The notes beneath the pieces were generated by a model. That model saw only the letters and a list, made by a program, of their open reading frames with translations. It made no database searches and was not told the DNA's origin. DNA of 57,968 nt from an uncultured Candidatus Saccharibacteria bacterium (GTDB taxonomy: Bacteria; Patescibacteriota; Saccharimonadia; Saccharimonadales; Saccharimonadaceae), in the NCBI GenBank assembly GCA_947165465.1, contig CAMVAM010000006.1, forward strand, positions 1-57,968. Direction: 5' to 3'. Shown piece after piece: positions 1-57,968 of this stretch; the first letter of the stretch is position 1, and each line of letters starts with the position of its first letter. Position numbers and translations under genes: made by a program.

Positions 1-54
1 CCAGTGACCTTACGAATGTGAATCGTACGCTCTAGCCAACTGAGCTAAAGATCC
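1..54 (-). tRNA. tRNA-Val(CAC), 3' part cut by window edge
   Basis: Read on the minus strand, the sequence starts GGATCTT at position 54, followed by a D-arm (AGCTCAGTTGGCTAGAGC) and an anticodon stem TACGA/TCGTA enclosing the loop TTCACAT, giving anticodon CAC (Val, reads GUG). The T-arm and acceptor 3' strand lie beyond position 1. The prfA promoter begins only about 10 bp from its 5' end, on the opposite strand. Confidence 0.9.
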
Positions 55-7408: not shown

Positions 7409-7442
7409 TGGAGCCGACTGTGACTTCGTCACAGATGCTCCA
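7409..7442 (-). repeat. tRNA-Thr 3'-end mimic: acceptor tail plus CCA joined to a hairpin
   Basis: On the minus strand, positions 7421-7409 read ACAGTCGGCTCCA, identical to the last 13 nt of the tRNA-Thr(TGT) gene 84 bp upstream. In place of a T-arm there is a perfect 7-bp stem with a GAA loop (CTGTGAC GAA GTCACAG, 7418-7434). An outer stem (TGGAGC / GCTCCA, 7409-7414 with 7437-7442) closes the structure. It lacks D- and anticodon arms, so it is not a tRNA. See also 35030-35070 and 57923-57962. Confidence 0.75.
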
Positions 7443-7492: not shown

Positions 7493-7568
7493 TGGAGCCG
7501 ACTGTCGGGCTTGAACCGACGACCTACGGTTTACAAAACCGTTGCTCTACCAGCTGAGCTAAGTCGGC
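7493..7568 (-). tRNA. tRNA-Thr(TGT)
   Basis: A 76-nt cloverleaf including encoded CCA. The acceptor stem is GCCGACT/AGTCGGC, the D-arm is normal, and the anticodon stem ACGGT/ACCGT encloses the loop TTTGTAA, giving anticodon TGT. The T-loop is TTCAAGC. Confidence 0.95.
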
Positions 7569-29034: not shown

Positions 29035-32000
29035 TTATTGCGTAATATACGACGCAGCCGGGCGAGCGATACAACGAATTGGAAGACCCATATCGCGATC
29101 GTAGCCGCCAGTCCCTACGTTACGGCTGTTATCTGAAGAAAAGTCAATATAGTATGCACGGTCTGCGTTCTTCGCGCCAGTCGCCCAGAAAGCTCCGGTA
29201 TAGCCAACCATATCATACGAACCACTCCAAGTACCAGTAAGTGGCAAATAGGTAGGAGAAAGCCAAAGATTACCTGAATATCGGTAAAGAAGGTCATAAT
29301 AAGTGGATGGCCCATAACCACCACGAGGAAGCGTCCAACCAGCCGGACAAATAGACTGGTCGAGTAGCACACCTGCCGTAGTGTAACTCGAGCTATCATT
29401 AAGGGCTACAGCCGCGGTCCAGTTGTAATAATTCCCCAAGCGATATTGCGTCGTACCGGATGTACTAATATAAGAAGTGCTGCTACCGCTACCACTATGT
29501 GTATTACCGTTCCAATATCTAACACCCGGATTATAAGACTGCGGGGTAGTAGTTGTAAAATTCCAAGTTGAGTTTGTATAAGTAGAAGAGGAAGGAGTCC
29601 AGTTAGCCGAAATATCCGTATTGGCCGGTGTTAGTGTTTTGCTAGTACTAAGATCAAGATCAAGATTCTGCGTCATCCAAACATTACCATCAGATAGTTT
29701 AGAAATGTAATAATAATTATTATCGCGATTGTCCATAAGCTGATACTGCGTTCCCACAGACATTGAGTTAAATACACCTTTGCGAGCGGCATTCGTTAAT
29801 GTTGCGAAATCTTGCATATAAGTTAAATCAGAAATCTTTGATTCATCCAAGACACAACGAATTAAATTGCCACTAGCACGATCAATACAGGCATCATTAT
29901 AAACAGTAGAACTATTACTAGTGAACTGCAACCCTAGCATTTTACCATTTCTAGAGAAACAACCGGTATCAGCCGCACTTGACGACCAATAACTTCCTAA
30001 CCAGTCTAGAGATGTTGGCGTAGAGCTAGTAAAGGTACCACTAAGCGTCATACCAGCACCGCCAGCAGCAACAGAAGTATGGAGCAATGTATTGGTACTA
30101 TAATAATTTACAAAATCCGGAATCTCGCCAGTGTTTCTGGTAGCAGTTGGCAATCTCCAACCGGCCGGGCAGATATCGTATTCAGCATCAGCAGAATTAG
30201 TTGAGCTAGTGATAGTACCACCTGAAGCGGCATAATAATTATATAGAATACCATAAGGCGAATAGCTAACCGAATCAGTACCAGAGACGAAAATGTATTC
30301 ACCAGCAGTATACGTATTGGAACCGGAAGTCTTCCTCCAGCCATTAAATATAGTTGCTGTAATGGTAGTAGCAATATTTGTATTGGCAGACGTAAGACTA
30401 ACGCTAAGATCCGTAGCACCAAGCTGAAGATTTTCAACCATCCAACAAACGCCATCGCTCATCCTCTTAATAGTATAAACATGATTATCTCTGGTATCTA
30501 ATGCTAGTCTTGCCGTAGACGTACAATCACTGGCAGTAAGGTTTTGCATAACTGGACCATTAAATACAGCATTGGCAGTTAAAGTGGCATTTGAAGTGCC
30601 GATTTTGTAAGTAGTGGTTTGCGTATTAGAAGAACCGATTGTGCCAGATGTAGCAGACCAACTACTAAAGACATAATTAGAAGCAGGACTCATAGTGATT
30701 GAGACAGCAACGCCTTCTTCGAGAGTAATAGACCCGCCATTCGACACAGATTGCCCATTTATCATAACACTAGACACGGTAGTGCCATAAGAAACCGTAA
30801 GAGTATGGGCTGGTTTTTTCAGTACGCACCGTATAGCGAGCCCGTTGTAGCGGCCGAAGCTATCGGCCGGATTGACACCCGACGTATAGAGGTACAGGCC
30901 GTACATACCCGAGTCATTGAACCTAGTAGAAGACCAGTAGTCGCCGTAAGACCCCTGACCCACCGGAGCGGCACTGAGGAAGCCGCCAGCGAGAGCGAAA
31001 GCAGCTCCGGAATTCTCAATTGATGCTCTCATGAGAGCGTTGGAGTTATACTCGGCGTAAAGAGCCTGGAATTCTCCGGAGCTTCCGCCGGTTGGGAGAC
31101 GCCATCCGACAGGGCAAATATCATAACTGGCATTGTTGCTGTTAGAACTACCAGAAATTGTTCCGGCAGAAGCGGCATAGTAATTGTAGAGAGTGCCATA
31201 GGCTGTGCCGGAAGTGGAGTCTGTGCCAGAGACACTAATAAATTCACCGGCATCATAGGTAGCGGATCCGGCTGTTTTCTTCCAGCTATTGAAGGTAGAA
31301 GCGGTAACAGTGGTGACTAGATTGGTGTTGGCGGACGTGAGATCTGTTGTAATGCCGGTACGTCCAAGATCCAAGTTTTCCATCATCCAACAATTACCGT
31401 CATTGAGGCGCTGGATAGTATAGGTATGCATATCACGACTATCATAAACAGTAGATGCAGCGGAAGTACAATTCGAAGAATCAAGATTCTGAATATAAGT
31501 ACCGGTGAATGTAGCAGTAGCCGTAAGAGTTGCGTCAGATGAAGCCATTGTATAGTAGGACGACGCAAGGCCCGTCCAAAAGAGCGAACCAGCGGTAGCA
31601 GACCATCTATTAAAAGTATAATCAGAAGACGTAGTCGCATTGATAGAGTATCTAACTCCTTGTTCAAGGCTAATTGTACCACCATCTGCGATTACTTGTC
31701 CGTTAATCTCCACACTAGATATGCCGGTTCCATATGAAATTGTAAGAGTAGAATAGGGATTCTTTGCCACGCAACGTACAGATTGGCCACGAGACGTTTG
31801 CCATCCAGTTCCCGTTGATACACGTGATTCATCTATATCTAGAGTCCATGCTGATCCATTCGACGTATACGTAGAAGTCCAATAGAGACCTCTTGTACCA
31901 ACATCATAAGGAGAGCCACTAGCAAAGAAACCGGCAAATGCAATAGCCGCGCCAGAATCCGCGATAGGTGATCTCATGAGGGCAACGGAATTATATTGTG

Positions 32001-33438
32001 CGTATAGATTAGTAAAACTACCATAAGAATTATAATTAGGCAGTCTCCATCCGGCCGGACAAATATCATATATCGCATCACCACTATTGGTTTGCCCAGA
32101 AATAGTCCCGGCAGTAGTGGTGTAGTAATTATAAAGGGTACCATATGGAGTACCGGAAGTAGAATCGGTGCCGGAGATATTGATGAATTCACCAGCATCA
32201 TAAGTCGAGGAGCCGGAAGACTTCCTCCAGCCGTTAAAAGTGGCGGCGGTTACGGTGGTAGAAAGATTAGTGTTAGAACTCGTTAGATCAGAGGCAAGGT
32301 TTACTCGCCCCAAATCCAAATTGTCTGTCATCCAAACCACACCGTCTAAGAGCTTTGCAAGATGATAATATGTACCATCACGAACATCAATCAAGCGATA
32401 GTTCACCCCTGTGGACATTGTGCTCGCAATAGTTTCATTCATATCTTGGATACAAACGGCATCCGTAACGGAATTATTCGTCGCAATAGTAGTGGCAGAG
32501 GTGTTACAAGTAATATTCAGTGTCCAGATGGCGTAAAGAATAATTCCGGTATTATTTTTAGTATAATCTATCGCATATATATCACCTGCAGCATAAGTCG
32601 TGCCAGAACAGGTTTCATTACCACCGGTTCCTCTAGTTGGGGCAACCGTGCACCAACCGGCAAAGGAGTGGTTCTGTCGTACCGGAATTGTATTCGGAAG
32701 TGTAATAGCGGTTGCAGTTACAGCTTCACTACTCATAGTGCTCGGAAGATATGTCACAGTGTCATCGCCGCCGTTCCCATTAAATACGATTCTATACGGC
32801 ACGGCATTAGCCGTTGCTTCCAAAGTAAATACAGTATTGACATACGAACCATATGGGAGACTCAAATCTATTCTTGCACCTAGCGAAATACTATAACTTT
32901 TGGCAGTGCTATTTGCCGCGGAAGTTACATCAAGAATTGTGCCAGAGGATGTTGGCGAAGGAAGATAATTAGAATTTGAAGCAGAATTAAGATAGTTTGG
33001 TTTATAGCCCCAACGATTACTAAGCGGCGTATTTCCGGAGCTTGCGAATTGTTCCGCGGTTACAGCAGAAGTAAGAGTCGGCAAAGAATCATTCCCTTTA
33101 TCAAGGGTAGTTTTAGATGAACGAGCCGTTAAAGTGTAGCCTGTATAATTAGTTGTCGCGATAATAAATCTAATATCATCCTTTCCGGATGTTGTTACAA
33201 AAGCGCCTACTCTGCTCGGGTTAACCGTAATCGAAGCGACATTGTTTAATTCCGTAAATGTGATTGTGCTTGGAATAGTCGGATCCACAACGGCAGAAAC
33301 ATCATCTTTCTCCTGAGAATACGGCACAAAGATATAAATACTAATAAGAATCAAAATGATAACAGAAAACGTTTTTAAAAACCGTTTTGCTCTGCTTGGA
33401 CCAATACGAAATCTATTTCTTCGTTTTCCTAAAAACAT
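29035..33438 (-). CDS. Giant FISUMP-repeat surface protein (1467 aa)
   Basis: A basic N-terminus and hydrophobic segment (about 21-41, signal peptide or anchor) lead to a ~190-residue N-terminal domain (TLTARSSKTTLDKG, NTPLSNRWGYKPNYLNS). One InlB-like repeat (YRIVFNGNGGDDT to LYAIWT) follows, then four FISUMP modules separated by two repeats with a recurring YGTxxSSVxINGQ motif. Each FISUMP module has the order D.RDNxxYxIxKLxDGNCWMxENL, a YNYYAA turn, YDICPAGWRLP and a closing IRCV. There is no C-terminal sorting signal or membrane span. The protein is Ser/Thr/Asn/Tyr-rich and nearly Lys-free in the modules, as expected for an extracellular adhesin. It is a paralogue of the 3515-residue protein downstream. 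The ribosome site is weak (CGAGG, 2 nt before ATG). Confidence 0.92.
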   Translation of the reverse strand: MFLGKRRNRFRIGPSRAKRFLKTFSVIILILISIYIFVPYSQEKDDVSAVVDPTIPSTITFTELNNVASITVNPSRVGAFVTTSGKDDIRFIIATTNYTGYTLTARSSKTTLDKGNDSLPTLTSAVTAEQFASSGNTPLSNRWGYKPNYLNSASNSNYLPSPTSSGTILDVTSAANSTAKSYSISLGARIDLSLPYGSYVNTVFTLEATANAVPYRIVFNGNGGDDTVTYLPSTMSSEAVTATAITLPNTIPVRQNHSFAGWCTVAPTRGTGGNETCSGTTYAAGDIYAIDYTKNNTGIILYAIWTLNITCNTSATTIATNNSVTDAVCIQDMNETIASTMSTGVNYRLIDVRDGTYYHLAKLLDGVVWMTDNLDLGRVNLASDLTSSNTNLSTTVTAATFNGWRKSSGSSTYDAGEFINISGTDSTSGTPYGTLYNYYTTTAGTISGQTNSGDAIYDICPAGWRLPNYNSYGSFTNLYAQYNSVALMRSPIADSGAAIAFAGFFASGSPYDVGTRGLYWTSTYTSNGSAWTLDIDESRVSTGTGWQTSRGQSVRCVAKNPYSTLTISYGTGISSVEINGQVIADGGTISLEQGVRYSINATTSSDYTFNRWSATAGSLFWTGLASSYYTMASSDATLTATATFTGTYIQNLDSSNCTSAASTVYDSRDMHTYTIQRLNDGNCWMMENLDLGRTGITTDLTSANTNLVTTVTASTFNSWKKTAGSATYDAGEFISVSGTDSTSGTAYGTLYNYYAASAGTISGSSNSNNASYDICPVGWRLPTGGSSGEFQALYAEYNSNALMRASIENSGAAFALAGGFLSAAPVGQGSYGDYWSSTRFNDSGMYGLYLYTSGVNPADSFGRYNGLAIRCVLKKPAHTLTVSYGTTVSSVMINGQSVSNGGSITLEEGVAVSITMSPASNYVFSSWSATSGTIGSSNTQTTTYKIGTSNATLTANAVFNGPVMQNLTASDCTSTARLALDTRDNHVYTIKRMSDGVCWMVENLQLGATDLSVSLTSANTNIATTITATIFNGWRKTSGSNTYTAGEYIFVSGTDSVSYSPYGILYNYYAASGGTITSSTNSADAEYDICPAGWRLPTATRNTGEIPDFVNYYSTNTLLHTSVAAGGAGMTLSGTFTSSTPTSLDWLGSYWSSSAADTGCFSRNGKMLGLQFTSNSSTVYNDACIDRASGNLIRCVLDESKISDLTYMQDFATLTNAARKGVFNSMSVGTQYQLMDNRDNNYYYISKLSDGNVWMTQNLDLDLSTSKTLTPANTDISANWTPSSSTYTNSTWNFTTTTPQSYNPGVRYWNGNTHSGSGSSTSYISTSGTTQYRLGNYYNWTAAVALNDSSSYTTAGVLLDQSICPAGWTLPRGGYGPSTYYDLLYRYSGNLWLSPTYLPLTGTWSGSYDMVGYTGAFWATGAKNADRAYYIDFSSDNSRNVGTGGYDRDMGLPIRCIARPAASYITQ
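29050..32470 (-). repeat. Four tandem FISUMP modules within the 1467-aa protein gene
   Basis: Module order along the protein: about 32450-31760, 31500-30825, 30545-29857 and 29815-29060. Linkers after modules 1 and 2 encode a shared ~80-residue beta repeat (SYGTxxSSVxINGQ). Modules 3 and 4 are joined directly. Boundaries were read from the conserved Cys codons and are approximate. Confidence 0.8.
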
Positions 33439-35024: not shown

Positions 35025-35070
35025 AAAAATGGTGCTGGAAGTAGGACTCGCTCGCATAGCGCGAGTCCGT
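35025..35070 (-). repeat. tRNA-Tyr 3'-end mimic: T-loop-to-CCA copy on a hairpin
   Basis: On the minus strand, a 26-nt stretch running from the T-loop (CGAGT) through CCA into a T-run repeats the 3' end of tRNA-Tyr(GTA), exactly 60 bp downstream of the original. The rest of the T-arm is replaced by a perfect 8-bp stem (GGACTCGC / GCGAGTCC, 35044-35051 with 35061-35068). There are no D or anticodon arms. The hairpin core is almost identical to that at 57936-57962. Confidence 0.8.
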
Positions 35071-35089
35071 AACTCACATCATATAAAAA

Positions 35090-35176
35090 TGGTGCTGGAA
35101 GTAGGACTCGAACCTACGAAGCCCGAAGGCGAGAGATTTACAGTCTCTTGTCATTGCCACTAGACGATTCCAGCAC
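35090..35176 (-). tRNA. tRNA-Tyr(GTA)
   Basis: An 87-nt class II tRNA with encoded CCA. Acceptor stem GTGCTGG/CCAGCAC; anticodon stem AGAGA/TCTCT with loop CTGTAAA (GTA); a long variable arm CGCCTTCGGGCTTCG; T-loop TTCGAGT. It is followed by a T-run and then by the tail mimic. Confidence 0.94.
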
Positions 35177-38604: not shown

Positions 38605-41600
38605 CTAATACTTACCGATACAGCGAATATTAATAGCATTGCCACGATCAGTTTGCGCATCAGCCAGTGATGAGGCATCGAGATTCCAGGTTTTCATCAT
38701 AGTGCTGCTAGAATATGTTGAAGCCCAATAGTTACCATAAGTCCCACTATACTGGATTAAGCTGCCACCAGTCATCAAGCCACCAAGCACGAAGGCGGCA
38801 CCTCCCGAAGAGACCGGGCTAAATAATTCGGTCGCGGTCTGATATTTAATACCTACACCATACAGCTCATATGAAGAACCCCATCCGGAAGTTGGTAATC
38901 TCCATCCCGCCGGACAAATATCGTAAGATGCATTTGCCGAACCAGAACTTGAGCAATAGGTACCAGCAGTAGCAGCACAGTAATTATACATTACACCATA
39001 TGGAGTTCCGGAAGTAGAATCAGTTCCAGAAACTGCCACAAATTCACCGGCAGTTCTGGTAGGTGTGATTGAAGTCTTCTTCCAAGCATTAAATGTAGAG
39101 TAAGCAACTGTAGAGGAGATGTTTGTATTCGCGCTCGTAAGATTCGTAGAAAGTGTCGTGCTACCAAGATTAAGATTTTGTGTTATCCAGATATGATCAT
39201 CTTTAAGCTTTGCTACATCATAAGTCTGGTTATCTCGATTATCTAGGACCTTATAGACTTTATCGTATGGCATCGTATTTAAGACTGCTGTTCTTTGTGC
39301 AGAAGTGAACGAATTATAGTCTTGCAAATACTTCAGCGAGCCAATACTTGTTTCCTTCAGAACGCATCTAATTGAATGCCCGCCATTGCGAATGACAGCG
39401 GCAGTAGGCTGAACAGACGGCTTATAATCAACATAGAAGCCATAGCGATACGAAGAGTTATAGACAGTCGACGACCAAAGCGTACCACTCCAAGAAAGCC
39501 AACCATTAGTTGTACTCGAGCCACCGCCGACCCAGCCAGCTTGTGCCATTGCGGCGCCACCACTAGTATAAGGAGCACGTAAACTGCTATAGGTAGTGTA
39601 ATATAGATTTAATCTGGACAAATCGCTATTCGTACCGCCAGTTGGGAGCCTCCACCCTGCCGGACAAATATCATAGGTTGCGTTAGTTGAATTGGAATCG
39701 CCGGTAATAGTCCCAGCAGTTGCAGCATAGTAATTATAAAGTGCACCATATTGAGTATTTGAAGTTGAATCAGTGCCAGATTGCAAGAAGACTTCACCTG
39801 CCGCATTCGTAGATGCACTCGAAGTAACCTTCCAGCTATTGAAAGTAGAATAAGTCACAGTCGTCGATAGATTCGTATTGCTACTAGTAAGATTATTGTA
39901 GAAACTCGCTGCGCCCAAGTTTAGGTTATCCATCATCCAACAGTTACCATCATCCAGCCTCTTTACATAATACGTTTGCATGTCTCTACTGTCATATACT
40001 TTAAGCGGCGTCGTCGTACATGAAGAACTACTGAGATTCTGCATATAAGTGCCAGTAAATGTCGCATAGCCGGTTATCGAAGCCGTAGTTCCAGTTCCAA
40101 GGGTAAGAGTAGTAGATTGTGACGAAGAGCCAACAGTAGCACCAGAAACATTCCAAGAACTAAATGCATAATCGGCTTTGAGATACATTACGAGTTGGAC
40201 TGTGGCACTTTGATCAAGCCGTACTTTACCACCGCTAGGCACAGTACTACCATTAACAGTAATCGCAGAAACGCCAGTACCATAATATATCGTCAAATCA
40301 ACACGAGGTTTATCATAGACACATTTTAATGGGTTCAAATTAGTCCTACCGGTCTGATAACCAGACGACCAAGTGGTGCTCGTAAGATAAGGACCATAAA
40401 CATTGTTAGCTGCGGCGGTCTGAGTCGAATAATAAACAGTGGATTCATTAACAGAACTATAATCGCCGTTAATCAAAAGGCCAGCACCACCAGAAACTAC
40501 CGATTTTCTCGCTAAAGCACTTGTGTTGTATCCGATATTATACAAACCACCAAGATCTCCGGCATTATAACCACCAGCAATCATCTTCCATCCTTTAGGA
40601 CAGATGTCATAAGCCGCATTTGTAGTTGACGTATCGACGCACATCGTATTTGCCGTTGCAGCACAATAGTTGTAATTCACAACATTTTTCCTATAAAGTG
40701 TATCGAGGTGTTCCACGGCAGCAGCAGTTGCGGTTGCGGTTGTTGTTGTTGTCCTCCAACCATTAAATGTTGCAGCAGATATAGTAGTCGACAAATTAGT
40801 GTTACTGCTAGTAAGATCTGTTGATATATCAGAAAGACCCAATTTCAAATTATCCGTCATATAACAGTTACCATCCGCGAGCCTTGCTACTACATATACT
40901 CTATTATCACGGTTATCAGTCAACGCTGTAACATTTGATTTATTTGATACCGCAACATTTACTGATGGCTGAGTAAGGCTATTACATCCAGTCCAGGTCT
41001 GAAGAGTGCCAGCAGATTGGATCCAGATGGCATACAGCTTCACATTCCCCACCGCATCTGCATAGGTATTTAACGTTGAAACATTAACCGTTTCATTCGC
41101 GCCGTAGATCGTGCCCGAACCATCCGAAGTAGGACTCCAACCCAAGAAACCATAACCAGCACGCTCAAATGTCGGAGATCTAAGCACAACAGAAGAACCA
41201 GTTAATCTCGTAAAGCCAGCCATATCACCCGAAGTTGCACCATTGCCATCATACATAACCGTAGGACTATATACGCACCTCAATCTGTGACCAATAGATT
41301 TCGATTGACCATAAGCAATTCTGACATAATCGTTGGTAAAACCAAAGAAGTATTTATAATAAGTTGTTCCATTATTCCAACCATCACCAACAGAATAATA
41401 GCCAACGTTTCTATAATCGTATGTAGTCGTACCGTACGTGTAGCCACTATATAAGAGATTAATAGGGAAGCTCCTTAATCTTGCAGATAAAGTGGCGGCG
41501 GTTGGAGAAGAAGTAGTAGTGTAATTAGTAGCGGAACCACCAATATTGGAAAGGAGAATATTGTATTCACCAGCAGAAGCATAACCACCGGTCGGCATAT

Positions 41601-44600
41601 GCCAACCAGCCGGACAGATATCCGCTCCAAATGAACTGTTATTGGCATGGAAACCATTGCCAGCAGTCGCAACGTGCCAACCATAATATGTACCTCTAGA
41701 TTGATCTAGACCATTCGAATAGATAATCGATTCGTTGCAAGCCTGTGCGTTACTAGTACAGGTGGATGGCGTACCGGTCCTATTAGACAAGAAGGCGGCA
41801 GTAGGATAGTTAGTATTGGCCTTAGTGATAGTGTCAGAACTAATATTAAATCTCGCGTCTTCAATCATCCAACAATTACCACCAGGAAGTCTAGCAATCG
41901 CATATGTATTTGCAGTAGTGCCACGAGTATCCGTAAGTGCAATGAAGCTTCCCGGAGTAATTGTACCGGTGCTACTATCGTATGCAGAGGTAGTTAAACT
42001 ACTACACCCCTTCCAGTTTTGGAACGTACCAGTAGCTTTAACCCAGACGGCATACAGCGTCACATTGGCAGGAGCACTTGCGCCAAGGTTTGTTGAATTT
42101 GCCGCAATAGTCTGATTTGGTCCAAAGACTTTTGCATTTGCAATTAGCGTTGCGGCATTAGATGCATCTGGATCGATTTGCGTCGCTGACCATCCAAGGA
42201 ATCCATATCCATCCCTTATAAAGTTGTTAGCAAACAGCACTATTTCATCGCCATTTAGCACGCCGGTATGACTCATTGAGTTCATATTAGTAGTACCGGT
42301 TGCATTGTTGCCATTATACGTAATAGTATATGCTGGTGACCATTGCGCATAGAGAGTGACATTACCTGTCGGAGTTATTGAAGTATAGCTTGTACCGGTA
42401 CCACCAGTCGCTGTATTCCATGAAGTAATCTTATGATTTTCATATCCAAACACATCAGTTGGAAGAGTGACAGCTGTTCCACTCGCCACATATATACGAG
42501 CAACTTTTTCATTTCCATCATTGGAATTTAATGTAATAGTTACGCCAGTGTTTGCTATACAACGTACGGAGTCACCAATAGATCTGTAAACGCTACGGCC
42601 AACATTTACACTGGTTGGACTAACCTGGTATTCAAAGAATCCGCTACCAGAGCTTGAAGTACCAGACGTGTATTGTCCATAAGTCCCGCGACCACTAACC
42701 GCCCCAGTCCAAACATATCCAGAATATATAAAGTTATTTGGAAAACTTCTTATGCCAGTTGATGAAGTAGTTGAACCAGAGTTGGCAGCAGTATTCAAAG
42801 CTTCATATTCTTTCCCCGCACCACTAGCGCCACCGGTTGGAAGTCGCCAACCTTTAGGGCAAATTGACGTACCAGACCACTCAGAAGACGCGGCGGTCGC
42901 TATTTCTCCGGTGTTTGCCATAGCCGCAGCGAAATTATAATAATTACCATACGAATAAATAGTTTGAACATTTGAAGTTTGCGAAGCAACAGCACTGGAA
43001 GAAGCGTCATTAAACCTCGGAATTCTATATTGGAGATTGTCCCCACCAGAAATAACATTTAGCGAAGAGGATGATATATCAGTAGTATAAAGCGAGTTCG
43101 CAACAGTAGACGCCATAAATGAGGCCAATTCAGAATTTGGGAGGCCCATAAATGCGCCACCAAAACCTTGCGCTTTGCTATTATCGGTAGAGTTTGTAGA
43201 ATTTAAGCGTAAATTCTCAATCATCCAACAATTGCCATCAGCAAGCTTTGCTACGGCATAAACTTGATTATCACGAGTGTCCTTAAGAGCAGTTACACTT
43301 CCCTGTGACAACGAAGAACAACCGGACCAATCTTGTAAATTACCAGCGGATTTAATCCAAACAGCATATAGCGTTAAATCACTAGTGATGGTGCTTGGTA
43401 AAGTGATTGTCTCCATTGGGCCATATATTGTAGCATTAGCTATTTCTGTTGCGGCATTCGCGGAATCAGGGTTAATTTGCGTAAATGACCATCCCGCAAA
43501 ACCATAACCTTGGCGTTTATAGTTAGATGCAAAAAGGGTAATTGAGGCGTTAGGAGCCGCATCGTGCGAAACTAGCATACTATATCCAGAGTCAGCACCG
43601 TTTCCATCATATTTAACCTGTTTAGATTTTTTCAGACAAACAAGCGAAGTCCCCCTGTATGCATTCGTGGAGCTAGCATACAAAACAGAGGAAGAGCTAT
43701 ATGATCCATAATAATTATATTTTTCACTAGAACCAGTCGACAAAACACCTCGCATAGCAATTCCGCCATAAGAACGATATAGCTGAACGGCACTACCATT
43801 ATAATAACCATCTAAACGAAAATTATTTGGAAATGTACGAAGTCTAGCAGATAAAACGCTAGCCGTCGGGCTCGATGAGGTAGTCGCCCCAGTCGCACTA
43901 CCGCCGAGTGAAGTATTAAGAGTAGCAAATTCAGAGCCAGAAGGGCTCGGAGAATTCCAACCAGATGGGCACAAATCACCTAAGACACCATCCGTAGTAG
44001 CTGTAGAATAAGAACTATTTCCCGCAGTGGAAGTATAATAGTTATACATATAACTGGCATTAACATAAGTACCCAACACTCTATCAACGCAGTCTTCAGA
44101 ATAAGTGCTACACCAAGAATAGCTCGACGTTCTTTTAGTCAAGAATTCCTGCGTAGGATGATTTGTATTCTCGGCCGTAATGTTAGCATATCTTGGATTC
44201 GTTCGCATTGGCTCAATGATCCAACATCTTCCATCACTCAGTTTCGCTACTGCATAAGCAATATTATCTCTAGTATCAGTAAGCGCAATAATATCGCCCG
44301 CAGTAATAGTCCCGTTGCTATAAGTTGCTGCCGTCATAGCGTCACAACCATTCCAATCTTGCAGATTACCAACAGGCTTAACCCAAACAGCATACAAAAC
44401 AACAGTAGCAGGCATATCTTCACCAAGTGTCGAACTATTAGTGACAATGTTTTCATTTGGCCCGAAAATTTTTGCATTGGAAATTAGAGTAGATGCATTT
44501 GCGGCATCCGGATCAATCTGTGTAGTAGACCACCCAGCGAATCCATATCCACTTCTAGTATATAAACTCGAATTTAGCATAATGGAGACTCCCTGATCTA

Positions 44601-47600
44601 CATTGTAACGATCATATGACTTCATCGCAGACATATTAGATGCACCATTCCCGTTGTAGACAATCGAATATTTAGACGCCCATTGTGCGTATAGGGTAGT
44701 ATTAGAAGAAAATGTATATGAAGAAGTGTAAGAAGTACCAGAGCCGTTAGATGCAGTATTCCAAGAAGAAACAGTCTTATTCTCTTGTGCAAACGACGTG
44801 GTGGTAGGCAAAGTTACAGATTCGCCAGATGTTCCATAAATACGCGCTATGCGGCCAGAGCCGTCGTTGGCATCTAGTACAACCTCAATGCCAGAAGCTA
44901 CAACGCATCTTACTGGCAAACCGACAAATTTATCGCGAGTGGTTGCTAAATGGGTAGAAGTGGTACTATATGAAATATAATAAAACTTACTTGCATCATA
45001 AGCCGTACCAGACAATATGTAGCCAGCCTTACCCCTACCGTTCGGCATAGACATACCACTGCCAATATATCCGTCCCAAATGAAATTATTTGGATATGTC
45101 CTGAGTGCAGTATCAGAATTAGTGGCACCGGAATTAATAACCCTAATGACTTTATTTAAATCTTTTGTAGAAGTCGTATTAGATGATGGATCACTGGTTG
45201 GCAATCTCCACCCAGCAGGACAAATCGATGAACCTATATTACTCGAATTTGAAGCACTATTAATTTCGCTTGTATTAGCTATTGCAGAAGCATAACTATA
45301 ATAATTACCATACGAATAGACATTATAGTCACCACTCATCATAGTGGAGACGGCATATTTTGTGTTCAAGTTTTCATAACGTGGCAAACGATATTGTTGG
45401 TTCGAGCCAGCAACAATATTTAGTTCCGTATTGAGTGGATCTGCAGTGTATAGGCTACTGGAAACCGTATTAGCGGAAAAAGAGCTCACACCAGTAGCTG
45501 TAGGTAAGCCAACAAACACGCCACCAAAACCTTGCGCTTTTGTCGAATCAGACGAATATTCCGAATCAAGTCTGAGATTTTCAATCATCCAACAGTTTTC
45601 ATCGGCCAATTTTGCAACACCATATACTTGATTATCGCGAGTGTCTTTGAGCGCTGTTACTGCACCAACCGACATCGAGGAACATCCGCTCCACCCTTGA
45701 AGATTTCCGGCCGATTTAATCCAGACAGCATAAAGAATAAGATCGTTATTGATGACGCTTGGCAAAGTTATTGTCTCGTTCGGACCATAAATTGTAGCAT
45801 TAGCAATAAGCGAAGATGCGTTCGCAGCATCAGGGTTAATTTGCGTAAATGACCAACCAAGGAAACCATAACCGTCACGTTTATAATCTGATGCAAATAG
45901 AGTAATTGATGAACTAGAAACGGCATCATGAGTCACGGCCATCTCTTGTCCGGCATCAGCACCGTTCCCATTATATCTGACACGATAATTAGAATCTGCC
46001 AAACAACGAACCGAACGACCAGTAGCCTTACCGGAAGCCATATCCATAGAAACGCCAGTCGAAGTCATACTATATGAATAAGCAGATTCTTGATATACGT
46101 CATACGACAACCAATAATAGCCACCTAAGCCTTGCGAATAAATGGAAGAATTTGACAAATATCCAGCATGAACGAGATTATTCGGATAAGCCGAAAGCCT
46201 CTTATTGACAACTTCGCCAGTCGGAGAGGTGGTAGCACTATAAGATCCCCTCGAAACACCGCTCAAAGTATTGACCAATGAATAGAACACATTCGTCGAC
46301 GACGAATCCGTTGTGCTATACGGTAAAGACCAACCATGTGGACAAATTGAAGTGTTTTTCCCGTAATTTCTTACCATGCTCTCGGTATTTGCCATAGCAG
46401 CCGGCCAGTTATAATAATTACCATAGGAATAAATATATTGATTCGAGGCAGTCATATCCGAAACGGTGCTAGCAGTATTTATAGAATTGTAACGAGGCAA
46501 ACGAGTACCAACATAATCGCCGGTAATATTGCTACTGCTATATTTCGAGTTTGCAGTAGTATTATTTGAAAAAATATTTTCAGATTCTGTCGCTAACCCA
46601 GAAAATACCCCGCCAAAACCTTCCGCCATAGAAGAGTCTGATGAATGAGCACCATCTAGTCGCAAATTCTCGACCATCCAGCAATTACCATCGACCAATC
46701 TTGCAACAGCATAAGTATTACCATCCCTTGAATCAGTAAGCCCAATCACGCCACCTGGAGTTATCACGCCATCAGAGATAGTCGAGGAAGCAAGAGAACT
46801 ACACCCTTTCCAATCTTGTATAGTCCCGGATGATTTAATCCAAACGGCGTAAAGCGTTATGTTGGCCGGTGCTGATACTCCCAATGTGCTACTATTTGTA
46901 ATAATACTTTCATTTGGACCAAATATTTTCGCATTTGCGATGAGCGTAGATGCGTTTGCCGCATCCGGATTAATCTGTGTAGTTGACCAACCAAGAAAAC
47001 CATAACCAGTTCTTGAATAGTTCGATGCGTAAAGCGTTATCTCTTCATCCGCTACAGCCAAGTGAGAAACAGACATAGAAGTGCTACCCGTAGATCCATT
47101 GCTGTTATATACTATCTCGTAAGCCGGTTCCCACTGCGCATAAAGAGTAATTGTATTCGTTGTCCCAACAGGTAGATACAGACCATCACTGAGCTCATAT
47201 CTGGTACCCGTACCATCAGCTTTCGTGTTCCAACTGCCTATTTTATTAAGAGGTTTCACGAAGTCATGGTCAGAAAGACGGACTGCATAACCGCTATCGA
47301 CGACAATGTCGTCTTTTGATCCAGAAGTTGCTCCGTTCCCATTGAATCTAACAGTAGTTTTCCCATAATTAGCCCTAGCAACACATCTAAGCGGAGCGCC
47401 ATAATCAGTATACAATGAAGATTTCAAATTAAAATATGATGAGTTAAAGCTATTAGTAAATGCATAAGACGAACTAACGAGTGTACGAGTCCAAAGATAG
47501 CTCGCGCCGATAACCTGACTGGCATTACTATAATAATAACCAGACCGGGCAAAGAATGTCGGATCAGAGCGAAGACTATTTAATATTTCAAGGTCAATCA

Positions 47601-49152
47601 CAGATGAACCACTATCGGAATAGACATCCACATAATTATATAATTTTGCTAAATGATTATATTCAGAATAAGTATTTTGCGTCAAACCATCAGTAAGCCT
47701 CCAACCAGCTGGGCAAACCGAATCCGGCATTGTGTCATATTGTTCAAAACCAGTTTTATTCTCTGCAATCGCGGCATTGTATTTATAATATACACCAGCT
47801 TTATAATGAGGACATAATTCAGTATTAGAACAAGCGGTGGCGGCGTATTCAGAAGAAGTGCTGTTAGTAGTGTAATAATGAAATCTATCCTGATCAATAG
47901 ATCCGGCAGCACCAGACGAAGACCAACCCGTTGTAGTTGTAATTGAAGATGTAGTAGGGGTCCACGTCCTAGATGTATCATTATTAGTATACCCTAAATC
48001 AGTAGTGTAATGAGTTAAAGTAGTCGATGAGTTTAATACATAGCCAAGATTCTGAGTCATCCAAACTTTACCGTCGATTAATTTGGAAATGAAATATTCT
48101 TTGTCATCGCGTTCGTCTTTTAGTTTGTACTGGGTGCCGGTCGTCATACTGGCAATAACATTATCATTAATATCCTGCATACAAACAGCATCTGTAGCCA
48201 CAACGCCAGTATTAATAGTTGAAGCACCACGGTTGCAGCTCTTATTCGATGTCCAGACGCCATAAAGAATAATATTACCACTTTGAGTGTTATTAATTCC
48301 GTAAGTATCTCCGGGATTAACAGTTGTGCCAGAACAAGATTGCCCACCGGCAATTTCGGTAGGAACGACATCACACCAAGAGACAAAAACATGAGCATCT
48401 CTAGTAGGGACATTGTTTGGGATATCAACAGACGTAAGAGATGACGATTGGCCAGTAATATTATTCGGTACATTAGAGACTATATCGCCGTCGGCAGCAA
48501 CAAATGAAACGGTATATGGAACCGGATTAGCAACATATTCTAGAATGAGAGTATTGTTTTCATAAGTACCAGACGGAATCTCGTAATTGACTCTAGCACC
48601 CAATGAAATCGTATAAGCTTTCGCGGTAACGTTAGCAACGGTTGTTTTATCTAGTATTACAGCAGTTGTCGTTGCTGGATAATATCTCTCTTCATTAGCG
48701 GATGAATTATAAAAATTTGGTTTGTATCCCCATCGGTTGCTCAGAGGAGTATTACCTGAGCTAGCAAATTGCGTAGCTGTCACAGAAGACGAGAGAGCAC
48801 TGATATAAGCATCGGAAGCACGATCAAGTGTAGTTTTAGTTGCTCTAGCAGAAAGCGTATATCCAGAATAATTATCAGTTGTAATATTGAAACTTATATC
48901 TGCATCGCCGGATGTAGTACCAAAAGTACCAGTCGCAGAAGGGTTAATGTTTAAAATTGCATGATTATTTGTAGAGACAAATGAAATAGAACTATCGACC
49001 GCCGCTCTCGCAACTACCGCATCAACGTCATCATGTTCGACCGATATTGGAATCATGAAACCACACAGCAAAAACGCCAACGCAAAATACGAAGCAAAAG
49101 CAATAGCACGGAATCGCCTAAGGCGCTTAAAACGTAAATTAAAACCTCGCAT
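38605..49152 (-). CDS. Giant FISUMP/InlB-repeat surface protein (3515 aa)
   Basis: The largest gene in the window. A basic N-terminus plus hydrophobic segment (about 14-37) is followed by a ~190-residue domain shared with the 1467-residue paralogue (NTPLSNRWGYKPN). Then come nine FISUMP modules, most separated by InlB-type repeats with GYGFLGWSxTQINPDAANAS and LYAVWIK; the last three use other linkers. Each module usually carries four Cys (after the GC start, in NCWM, in CPAGWRLP and in RCV), suggesting two disulfides per module. There is no C-terminal sorting signal. It is probably an exported adhesin or fibre on the cell surface. The ribosome site AAAGGAG is about 18 nt before this ATG, and a different-frame ATG lies between, so the start is the least certain part. 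Downstream, trpS follows after a short gap. Confidence 0.92.
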   Translation of the reverse strand: MRGFNLRFKRLRRFRAIAFASYFALAFLLCGFMIPISVEHDDVDAVVARAAVDSSISFVSTNNHAILNINPSATGTFGTTSGDADISFNITTDNYSGYTLSARATKTTLDRASDAYISALSSSVTATQFASSGNTPLSNRWGYKPNFYNSSANEERYYPATTTAVILDKTTVANVTAKAYTISLGARVNYEIPSGTYENNTLILEYVANPVPYTVSFVAADGDIVSNVPNNITGQSSSLTSVDIPNNVPTRDAHVFVSWCDVVPTEIAGGQSCSGTTVNPGDTYGINNTQSGNIILYGVWTSNKSCNRGASTINTGVVATDAVCMQDINDNVIASMTTGTQYKLKDERDDKEYFISKLIDGKVWMTQNLGYVLNSSTTLTHYTTDLGYTNNDTSRTWTPTTSSITTTTGWSSSGAAGSIDQDRFHYYTTNSTSSEYAATACSNTELCPHYKAGVYYKYNAAIAENKTGFEQYDTMPDSVCPAGWRLTDGLTQNTYSEYNHLAKLYNYVDVYSDSGSSVIDLEILNSLRSDPTFFARSGYYYSNASQVIGASYLWTRTLVSSSYAFTNSFNSSYFNLKSSLYTDYGAPLRCVARANYGKTTVRFNGNGATSGSKDDIVVDSGYAVRLSDHDFVKPLNKIGSWNTKADGTGTRYELSDGLYLPVGTTNTITLYAQWEPAYEIVYNSNGSTGSTSMSVSHLAVADEEITLYASNYSRTGYGFLGWSTTQINPDAANASTLIANAKIFGPNESIITNSSTLGVSAPANITLYAVWIKSSGTIQDWKGCSSLASSTISDGVITPGGVIGLTDSRDGNTYAVARLVDGNCWMVENLRLDGAHSSDSSMAEGFGGVFSGLATESENIFSNNTTANSKYSSSNITGDYVGTRLPRYNSINTASTVSDMTASNQYIYSYGNYYNWPAAMANTESMVRNYGKNTSICPHGWSLPYSTTDSSSTNVFYSLVNTLSGVSRGSYSATTSPTGEVVNKRLSAYPNNLVHAGYLSNSSIYSQGLGGYYWLSYDVYQESAYSYSMTSTGVSMDMASGKATGRSVRCLADSNYRVRYNGNGADAGQEMAVTHDAVSSSSITLFASDYKRDGYGFLGWSFTQINPDAANASSLIANATIYGPNETITLPSVINNDLILYAVWIKSAGNLQGWSGCSSMSVGAVTALKDTRDNQVYGVAKLADENCWMIENLRLDSEYSSDSTKAQGFGGVFVGLPTATGVSSFSANTVSSSLYTADPLNTELNIVAGSNQQYRLPRYENLNTKYAVSTMMSGDYNVYSYGNYYSYASAIANTSEINSASNSSNIGSSICPAGWRLPTSDPSSNTTSTKDLNKVIRVINSGATNSDTALRTYPNNFIWDGYIGSGMSMPNGRGKAGYILSGTAYDASKFYYISYSTTSTHLATTRDKFVGLPVRCVVASGIEVVLDANDGSGRIARIYGTSGESVTLPTTTSFAQENKTVSSWNTASNGSGTSYTSSYTFSSNTTLYAQWASKYSIVYNGNGASNMSAMKSYDRYNVDQGVSIMLNSSLYTRSGYGFAGWSTTQIDPDAANASTLISNAKIFGPNENIVTNSSTLGEDMPATVVLYAVWVKPVGNLQDWNGCDAMTAATYSNGTITAGDIIALTDTRDNIAYAVAKLSDGRCWIIEPMRTNPRYANITAENTNHPTQEFLTKRTSSYSWCSTYSEDCVDRVLGTYVNASYMYNYYTSTAGNSSYSTATTDGVLGDLCPSGWNSPSPSGSEFATLNTSLGGSATGATTSSSPTASVLSARLRTFPNNFRLDGYYNGSAVQLYRSYGGIAMRGVLSTGSSEKYNYYGSYSSSSVLYASSTNAYRGTSLVCLKKSKQVKYDGNGADSGYSMLVSHDAAPNASITLFASNYKRQGYGFAGWSFTQINPDSANAATEIANATIYGPMETITLPSTITSDLTLYAVWIKSAGNLQDWSGCSSLSQGSVTALKDTRDNQVYAVAKLADGNCWMIENLRLNSTNSTDNSKAQGFGGAFMGLPNSELASFMASTVANSLYTTDISSSSLNVISGGDNLQYRIPRFNDASSSAVASQTSNVQTIYSYGNYYNFAAAMANTGEIATAASSEWSGTSICPKGWRLPTGGASGAGKEYEALNTAANSGSTTSSTGIRSFPNNFIYSGYVWTGAVSGRGTYGQYTSGTSSSGSGFFEYQVSPTSVNVGRSVYRSIGDSVRCIANTGVTITLNSNDGNEKVARIYVASGTAVTLPTDVFGYENHKITSWNTATGGTGTSYTSITPTGNVTLYAQWSPAYTITYNGNNATGTTNMNSMSHTGVLNGDEIVLFANNFIRDGYGFLGWSATQIDPDASNAATLIANAKVFGPNQTIAANSTNLGASAPANVTLYAVWVKATGTFQNWKGCSSLTTSAYDSSTGTITPGSFIALTDTRGTTANTYAIARLPGGNCWMIEDARFNISSDTITKANTNYPTAAFLSNRTGTPSTCTSNAQACNESIIYSNGLDQSRGTYYGWHVATAGNGFHANNSSFGADICPAGWHMPTGGYASAGEYNILLSNIGGSATNYTTTSSPTAATLSARLRSFPINLLYSGYTYGTTTYDYRNVGYYSVGDGWNNGTTYYKYFFGFTNDYVRIAYGQSKSIGHRLRCVYSPTVMYDGNGATSGDMAGFTRLTGSSVVLRSPTFERAGYGFLGWSPTSDGSGTIYGANETVNVSTLNTYADAVGNVKLYAIWIQSAGTLQTWTGCNSLTQPSVNVAVSNKSNVTALTDNRDNRVYVVARLADGNCYMTDNLKLGLSDISTDLTSSNTNLSTTISAATFNGWRTTTTTATATAAAVEHLDTLYRKNVVNYNYCAATANTMCVDTSTTNAAYDICPKGWKMIAGGYNAGDLGGLYNIGYNTSALARKSVVSGGAGLLINGDYSSVNESTVYYSTQTAAANNVYGPYLTSTTWSSGYQTGRTNLNPLKCVYDKPRVDLTIYYGTGVSAITVNGSTVPSGGKVRLDQSATVQLVMYLKADYAFSSWNVSGATVGSSSQSTTLTLGTGTTASITGYATFTGTYMQNLSSSSCTTTPLKVYDSRDMQTYYVKRLDDGNCWMMDNLNLGAASFYNNLTSSNTNLSTTVTYSTFNSWKVTSSASTNAAGEVFLQSGTDSTSNTQYGALYNYYAATAGTITGDSNSTNATYDICPAGWRLPTGGTNSDLSRLNLYYTTYSSLRAPYTSGGAAMAQAGWVGGGSSTTNGWLSWSGTLWSSTVYNSSYRYGFYVDYKPSVQPTAAVIRNGGHSIRCVLKETSIGSLKYLQDYNSFTSAQRTAVLNTMPYDKVYKVLDNRDNQTYDVAKLKDDHIWITQNLNLGSTTLSTNLTSANTNISSTVAYSTFNAWKKTSITPTRTAGEFVAVSGTDSTSGTPYGVMYNYCAATAGTYCSSSGSANASYDICPAGWRLPTSGWGSSYELYGVGIKYQTATELFSPVSSGGAAFVLGGLMTGGSLIQYSGTYGNYWASTYSSSTMMKTWNLDASSLADAQTDRGNAINIRCIGKY
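38610..48250 (-). repeat. Nine FISUMP modules with InlB-type spacers in the 3515-aa gene
   Basis: Approximate module positions in protein order: 48250-47380, 46820-46000, 45700-44900, 44360-43640, 43330-42560, 42010-41270, 40990-40310, 40030-39360 and 39320-38610. Spacers 1-5 carry the GWSxTQI(N/D)PDAANAS segment, spacer 6 a shortened form, spacer 7 an YGTGVSAITVNGS-type beta repeat; modules 8 and 9 are directly joined. Longer double spacers alternate with short ones (after modules 1, 3, 5 versus 2, 4), suggesting duplication of a two-module unit. Confidence 0.8.
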
Positions 49153-57904: not shown

Positions 57905-57922
57905 TTTTAGAAGCATAAAAAA

Positions 57923-57962
57923 TGGTGGAGTAGAACGGACTCGTTCGCGAAGCGCGAGTCCG
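57923..57962 (-). repeat. Third tRNA 3'-end mimic on a hairpin
   Basis: On the minus strand, an 8-bp stem (CGGACTCG / CGAGTCCG, 57936-57943 with 57955-57962) is followed by TTCTACTCCACCA and a T-run, i.e. an acceptor 3' strand with CCA. The hairpin core differs from that at 35044-35068 at 3 of 25 positions. The parental tRNA would lie to the right of the window. Confidence 0.65.
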
Positions 57963-57968
57963 GAGGAA

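Follow-up and report, generated by a model that had tools for sequence, protein, structure and literature searches.

A hairpin and a displaced 3' end beside tRNA-Tyr

We analysed a stretch of 57,968 nucleotides (the window) from the genome of an uncultured Candidatus Saccharibacteria bacterium, G000, together with related genomes; all the sequences are assemblies, and several of the contigs are MAG-derived. An intact tRNA-Tyr gene in the window is followed by a hairpin and a second copy of its own 3' end. We call this arrangement a module, and its parts are the following.

35090-35174, minus strand: intact tRNA-Tyr (GTA) with encoded CCA, then TTTTT (ARAGORN and Rfam RF00005)
35051-35084, minus strand: 34-nt insert separating the two 3'-end copies (ATATGATGTGAGTTAC, the 5' arm and the inner part)
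35062-35068, minus strand: 5' arm GGACTCG, complementary to the T-loop/T-stem 3' strand CGAGTCC of its own tRNA
35051-35061, minus strand: inner part CGC-TAT-GCG-AG, with a 3-bp inner helix, a triloop and a 2-nt 3' bulge
35044-35050, minus strand: 3' arm CGAGTCC, the 7 nt with which the displaced copy begins
35025-35050, minus strand: second, displaced tRNA-Tyr 3' end, an exact 26-nt repeat running from T-loop position C56 along the 3' strands of the T-stem and acceptor to CCA and T5

The 26-mer CGAGTCCTACTTCCAGCACCATTTTT, which begins at T-loop position C56 and takes in CCA and the T-run, is present at 35110-35085(-) and again at 35050-35025(-), with a spacing of exactly 60. This confirms the exact repeat described in the earlier note, namely a 26-nt duplicate of the tRNA-Tyr tail lying 60 bp downstream behind an 8-bp hairpin. 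Even when 2 mismatches were allowed, the 21-nt core of the copy had two sites only in the 785-kb genome. The hairpin itself (GGACTCG-CGC-TAT-GCG-AG-CGAGTCC, 35068-35044(-)) had 8 bp paired in RNAfold; taken alone, its stability was only modestly above that of shuffled sequences (z -2.45). The layout of its inner part recurs in other modules, with covarying 3-bp helices.

A scan of the window against Rfam at the gathering threshold returned tRNA as the sole match, and an exact search for the hairpin in viral contigs gave none. The hairpin had also been proposed to be a backup terminator. That proposal was not borne out, as no terminator-like site is present at 35025-35068; the stem and the T-run are 14 nt apart, whereas an intrinsic terminator has a GC stem running straight into its T-run. 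The locus is flanked by genes for two very large secreted-looking proteins of 1467 and 3515 aa (29035-33438 and 38605-49152, minus strand), both made of repeated domains with motifs such as 'ICPAGWRLP'.

Copies of their own tails beside other tRNAs of the genome

Two further modules lie in the window.

7409-7442, minus strand: second module, hairpin TGGAGCATCTGTGAC-GAA-GTCACAGTCGGCTCCA; the last 13 nt of its 3' strand repeat the 3' end of tRNA-Thr(tgt)
7493-7568: tRNA-Thr(tgt), partner of the second module
57923-57961, minus strand: third module, hairpin GGACTCGCGCTTCGCGAACGAGTCC plus a copy of the tRNA-Ala(cgc) 3' end

The tRNA-Ala(cgc) gene of the third module is found on contig C3 (73-148), which overlaps the window end. 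The overlap of ∼55 nt, shared by window positions 57914-57968 and the start of C3, falls within the Ala(cgc) module and makes it probable that these contigs adjoin. At its other end (1-54, minus strand), the window holds a tRNA that is cut off by the contig start and lacks its 3' end (Rfam RF00005).

We surveyed all 39 tRNAs recovered from G000 for copies of their own 3' ends, at least 15 nt long and not more than 300 nt downstream, and observed such copies at 10 of them. The tails of other tRNAs, used as a control, gave 0 of 1404, and own-tail copies upstream were seen at 1 of 39, which excludes chance. The earlier note had left it possible that the copy was unique to tRNA-Tyr, and this genome-wide check established that it is not. 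Exact 20/20 copies were located downstream of Tyr, Ala(cgc), Asn, Gly(gcc) (twice), Pro(cgg), Ser(cga) and Ser(gct), and shorter ones near Cys, Gly(tcc), Leu(caa), Thr(tgt), Val(tac) and others. Typically, the copy was preceded by a hairpin whose 5' arm complements the T-loop/T-stem of the same tRNA.

A decayed tandem tRNA-Tyr gene would likewise leave behind a copy of the tRNA 3' part. However, the 5' two thirds of such a gene have left no trace in the window module; many modules start precisely in the T-loop, and a hairpin of shared design stands where the remainder of a gene would be expected. The comparison of orthologous loci gave no appearance of tandem tRNA-Tyr decay either, in answer to a doubt that the earlier note had raised. 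We consider this origin extremely improbable.

A common hairpin design with arms fitted to the neighbouring tRNA

We folded 53 modules from the genus and found a common layout in most of them; the family is genus-wide. The copy starts at or near C56, and it is preceded by an arm complementary to the T-loop/T-stem 3' strand of its own tRNA, for example GGACTCG for Tyr, AGACTCG for Asn and GGATTCG for Gln and Ile. Between the arm and the copy lies a small core consisting of a 3-bp helix, a short loop and either a 1-2 nt 3' bulge or a G.G mismatch. The 3-bp helices covary (TTC/GAA, CGC/GCG, GGC/GCC, ACC/GGT, ATC/GAT, TAC/GTA and TTT/AAA).

Among the 33 modules with a full 21-nt copy, to which the count was restricted, 16 have a 7-nt arm fully complementary (7/7) to their own tRNA. 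Arms of other modules pair in part as well (17% reach 7/7 with G.U allowed); the contrast between own and other arms is therefore a matter of degree, because T-loops are alike. In G048, the 20-nt core GACCTCGCTAAAGCTCGGTG is identical beside Gln(ttg) and Trp(cca), and the arms match the respective tRNA in each case. Such own-specific arms are not explained by the simple insertion of a fixed element. The length of the copy varies as well (16-30 nt in the tabulated modules), its 5' limit ranging from the T-stem to the acceptor.

These features bear on the possibility that the modules are mutational by-products, in which fold-back template switching or slippage yields an inverted and a direct copy of the tRNA end and the pieces linger. 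An antisense arm beside a sense copy is the product expected from such events, and both the variable 5' limit and the existence of tandem units agree with it. Template switching alone explains the simplest modules; it does not explain the identical core at different tRNAs with matching arms, nor the conserved three-helix core described below, which is found order-wide exactly in the T-loop and covaries. As a general account of the family we think it quite unlikely.

Differences between closely related genomes

Within one genus, the number of tRNAs with copies of at least 15 nt ranged from 15 of 41 in G048 through 5 of 39 in G001 to 0 of 33 in G034. The sibling species G048 and G039 have two Tyr modules and an Ala(ggc) module in common. 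A Glu(ctc) module of G048 is missing from G039, where the flanks are almost identical; conversely, G039 alone of this pair has a His module and a hairpin module at Gly(tcc). Since the tRNA 3'-end repeat borders the segments in which these two species differ, recombination between repeats could have removed a unit precisely, and this is no less possible than insertion. In the second Tyr module, the two species differ at three arm positions, and at each of them the pair is kept on the sense strand (G.U included). In another pair, G052 and G028, the loci are 99.7% identical, and one of them is without 70 nt of a longer core. We also observed, in G026 (L033, 2760-4150), a 1.2-kb stretch with a copy of the 3' half of the Tyr hairpin on either side, which resembles a gene-bearing cassette and holds a membrane protein gene of about 320 aa.

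A larger three-helix core elsewhere in the order

In G094 and G064, which belong to other families of the order, the displaced fragment is split in the T-loop by a structured core of ∼95 nt. Ten such cores, aligned without the use of structure, yielded three helices, and for 26 of the 35 base pairs one sequence or more had both partners changed. A covariance model built for this core (R1) detected it in 76 of 198 genomes of the order and in 60 of 122 genera, with up to 24 copies per genome and a best E of 5e-24, covariance-model E-values being rough. No R1 match was obtained in the genus of the window. In a phylum-wide sample of 287 genomes, seven were core-positive and all seven came from this order.

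When 63 matches were aligned by fitting to the R1 model, 31 of the 35 pairs covaried. Double changes numbered 395, compared with an average of 100 in shuffles, and the signal collapsed in slid controls. One G.U pair was conserved in 41 of 45 sequences; this suggests that it is the tRNA-sense strand that folds. On ten loci of G094, Rfam at loose E-values gave tRNA and sub-threshold noise only, with no match to RtT. The three-helix core appears to be undescribed.

Core identity was ∼0.71 within genomes as well as between them. This indicates that there was no burst of recent copies, and it suits long-lived copies under selection equally well. Near-identical cores do occur beside different tRNAs, Gln(ctg) and Gln(ttg) of one genome sharing 99% and a Met/Lys pair 93%. 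Vertical inheritance tRNA by tRNA was rejected, as cores at the same tRNA in different genomes were on average no more alike than others.

The small hairpin of the window's genus and the three-helix core have a closing stem from their own T-arm, a core in the T-loop and their own acceptor end thereafter. From this common position and design, though not from sequence, we infer that the two are homologous. We also noted at least two more core types beside tRNAs (L219, L222, L224 and L232; L216 and L258), which read GAAGCTACCTC..TAGYTTCGAG and TTGCTTGGCCGA..GAGC.

Position and orientation of the cores

We examined 88 cores that had been chosen by the core itself, with no use made of the tRNA neighbourhood. 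A tRNA on the same strand lies within 400 nt of 82 of these, and none has an opposite-strand tRNA alone. Two forms were observed. In form (a), an intact tRNA is followed, usually after a terminator, by an antisense T-arm, the T-stem 5' strand, the core, the T-stem 3' strand and the tRNA's own acceptor end, the core starting mostly 63-89 nt past the tRNA. In form (b), the 5' part of the tRNA with its anticodon arm comes first, then the core, the T-stem 3' strand, an antisense T-loop and the intact tRNA; the core ends ∼34-41 nt ahead of most tRNAs, 17-22 nt ahead of Ser, and in a few cases farther away. Hence the downstream fragments are 3' ones and the upstream fragments 5' ones, and their distances often fall in a narrow range.

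Of 103 cores, 59 were scored as having a strong copy of their own tRNA, and for the rest the fragment at the nearby tRNA is degraded or went unrecognised; seven were without any tRNA in the stretch examined. In L229, L282 and L302, cores were nested within broken copies, in the region of either the D-loop or the anticodon loop. Upstream of a tRNA-Arg(tct) of G137 (L279, 891-1306) we saw three tandem 190-bp units, which repeat the promoter and the 5' part of the tRNA with an altered D-arm (GCGGAAGACGGATTAGAGC).

These data can also be read in terms of a functional RNA, with the modules acting in maturation, in quality control or as small RNAs after being co-transcribed as folded tRNA trailers or leaders. 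This is the main rival to the reading that we prefer below. The strong covariation, the conserved G.U pair on the tRNA strand, the sense orientation, the mostly narrow spacing, the preservation of sense-strand pairing by all three arm changes in the sibling species and the survival of copies at ∼70% identity with their folds intact are consistent with it, and RtT provides a precedent (PMC4986893). On the other hand, the distribution is patchy (no tRNA of the 33 in G034 against 15 of 41 in G048), and sibling species differ in the tRNAs used. A terminator often stands between the tRNA and the downstream module, nested insertion in the loops of broken tRNAs would be odd for a regulator, and an internal loss of 70 nt is tolerated between loci that are 99.7% identical. 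Taken together, we judge a functional RNA to be somewhat unlikely.

Search for a mobilising enzyme

The recombinase count in G000 came to a single PF00589 protein, a Xer-type tyrosine recombinase, and Y1 transposases (PF01797) were absent from the module-bearing genomes G000, G001 and G048. RAYT-like Y1 genes do occur in several genomes of the order (L265 and L267-L274), where short palindromes of their own adjoin them (e.g. AAAGGTCCGTCCTTTT). At ten Y1 loci of the order that we checked there was no R1 match, and other palindromes were present. Across 23 order-level genomes, Y1 was weakly associated with the presence of the core (p 0.03, core-negative membership being assumed), and the loci gave no support to this association. 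Y1/RAYT enzymes were rejected as movers, since they are missing from the module-bearing genomes of the genus and are flanked elsewhere by other palindromes.

Integrases were considered in connection with the view that the modules are attachment-site scars, left at the T-loop after the insertion and later loss of ordinary tyrosine-integrase elements. Fragments from the T-loop to the 3' end, in this layout, are the normal mark of tRNA islands (PMC4383910), and the gene-bearing 1.2-kb stretch of G026 between two copies would suit such a history. However, genuine integrase elements of the genus use a different site. In close relatives of G055, two different elements break the anticodon loop of tRNA-Thr(ggt) (L142, 11595-12500, and L144, 11551-12453), each with a tyrosine integrase adjoining the break. 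In the integrase neighbourhoods of G001, the integrase was not bounded by tRNA 3'-end duplications of the module kind. The lone recombinase of G000 is Xer-type, and the intervals of 60-190 bp have recurring contents. The fragment logic behind the scar proposal of the earlier note stands, but a dedicated integrase, an element or a remnant was not found, and we regard scars of this kind as very unlikely.

Comparison with known systems

tRNA-targeted islands carry a 3' fragment downstream or a 5' fragment upstream, in the same orientation as the intact tRNA (PMC4383910). The modules share with such integrative islands (Islander; T-loop and T-acceptor junction class) the intact tRNA and its own displaced fragment in the same orientation. 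Islander islands are at least 2 kb long, whereas most module intervals are ∼60-190 bp and the Tyr insert is 34 nt. The modules also differ from them in having no integrase in the interval, a folded core at the cut, an arm complementing their own T-arm and a presence at many tRNAs per genome.

Integron attC sites are recognised as a folded single strand. They resemble the modules in being folded sites with bulged bases that occur in arrays, but the window hairpin lacks the RYYYAAC/GTTRRRY box pair, its closing arms being GGACTCG and CGAGTCC, and the modules are located in tRNA T-loops. One PF00589 protein was seen in G000, and no integron integrase was identified. REP/BIME sequences are similar in that they are short, multi-copy, imperfect hairpins of intergenic DNA; in contrast to REP/RAYT systems, the modules of G000, G001 and G048 have no Y1 in their genomes, and the ten Y1 loci checked have palindromes of another kind and no R1 match. 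A MITE or transposon with a target-site duplication does not fit either, as the copy length is not fixed and the arms match the target tRNA.

In E. coli, the 178-bp repeats of tyrT carry the tRNA-Tyr 3' end. The RtT RNA of E. coli tRNA operons is released from the transcript (PMC4986893) and has been discussed alongside a relation to BIME repeats (PMC2965389). By analogy, RtT may be regarded as the nearest named relative of the modules in spirit, both having repeat units within a tRNA operon. Unlike RtT, the modules have no Rfam match, their arms fit each tRNA, and they occur lineage-wide at many tRNAs. We also considered the TIGR-Tas arrays known in this phylum, which have repeats of 8-12 nt and 9-nt spacers (PMC12045711), and rejected them because these sizes are unlike those of the modules.

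Each known family that we tested failed on a defining feature, and for this reason we rate the module family as a new kind; no earlier description was found in a search of the openly licensed literature, outside which most subscription papers lay.

A model of T-loop cassettes and its implications

Our preferred reading, held tentatively and at slightly less than an even chance, is that the modules are short non-autonomous cassettes of the T-loop, which are recognised through the fold of their tRNA-sense strand and whose complementary arm assists in matching the T-arm. It builds on the anatomy, the matching to the own tRNA, the covariation, the lineage restriction, the unit-precise presence and absence and the occurrence of the same core at different tRNAs, all of which were observed directly. 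In such a cassette, the first part would be a displaced piece of the adjacent tRNA, severed in the T-loop at about U55/C56, with the 3' end placed downstream or the 5' part upstream. The second would be a folded core exactly at the cut, from the 3-bp hairpin in the window's genus to the three-helix 95-nt core elsewhere in the order, and the third, an arm complementing the own T-arm, would close the fold. Whole units would be gained and lost with the tRNA left intact, as with tRNA-targeted islands, yet at 60-190 bp and with no integrase.

On this reading, the units would arise by insertion rather than by template switching, the recognised form would be the tRNA-sense strand, as RNA or single-stranded DNA, and a host or trans-acting factor would move them. 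Against mobility stands the observation that no mobilising enzyme was seen, G000 having one Xer-type recombinase and no Y1. A guide-directed system, in which the arm would pair with the target tRNA (gene or transcript) and direct the core into the T-loop while the displaced half is copied so that the tRNA survives, seems to us unlikely. The interpretation given in the earlier note is partly supported. Among its four ideas, the miniature mobile unit fits best, to which we add that this unit belongs to a large family.

A conserved folded element that is present in more than one third of the sampled genomes of the order, sits in the T-loops of displaced tRNA fragments and has no counterpart in Rfam is something new that calls for an explanation. 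If the units are mobile, they would move without any recombinase found here and match themselves to each tRNA, which to our knowledge no known tRNA-targeting element does. If the guide-directed reading were true, this would be a target-templated, integrase-free mobile element of RNA or single-stranded DNA, confined to one bacterial order. If they are RNA, many tRNA genes in these reduced genomes have a new structured trailer or leader. Saccharibacteria are tiny parasitic bacteria, and for the annotation of their genomes our results carry a warning, namely that tRNA fragments need not signal genomic islands.
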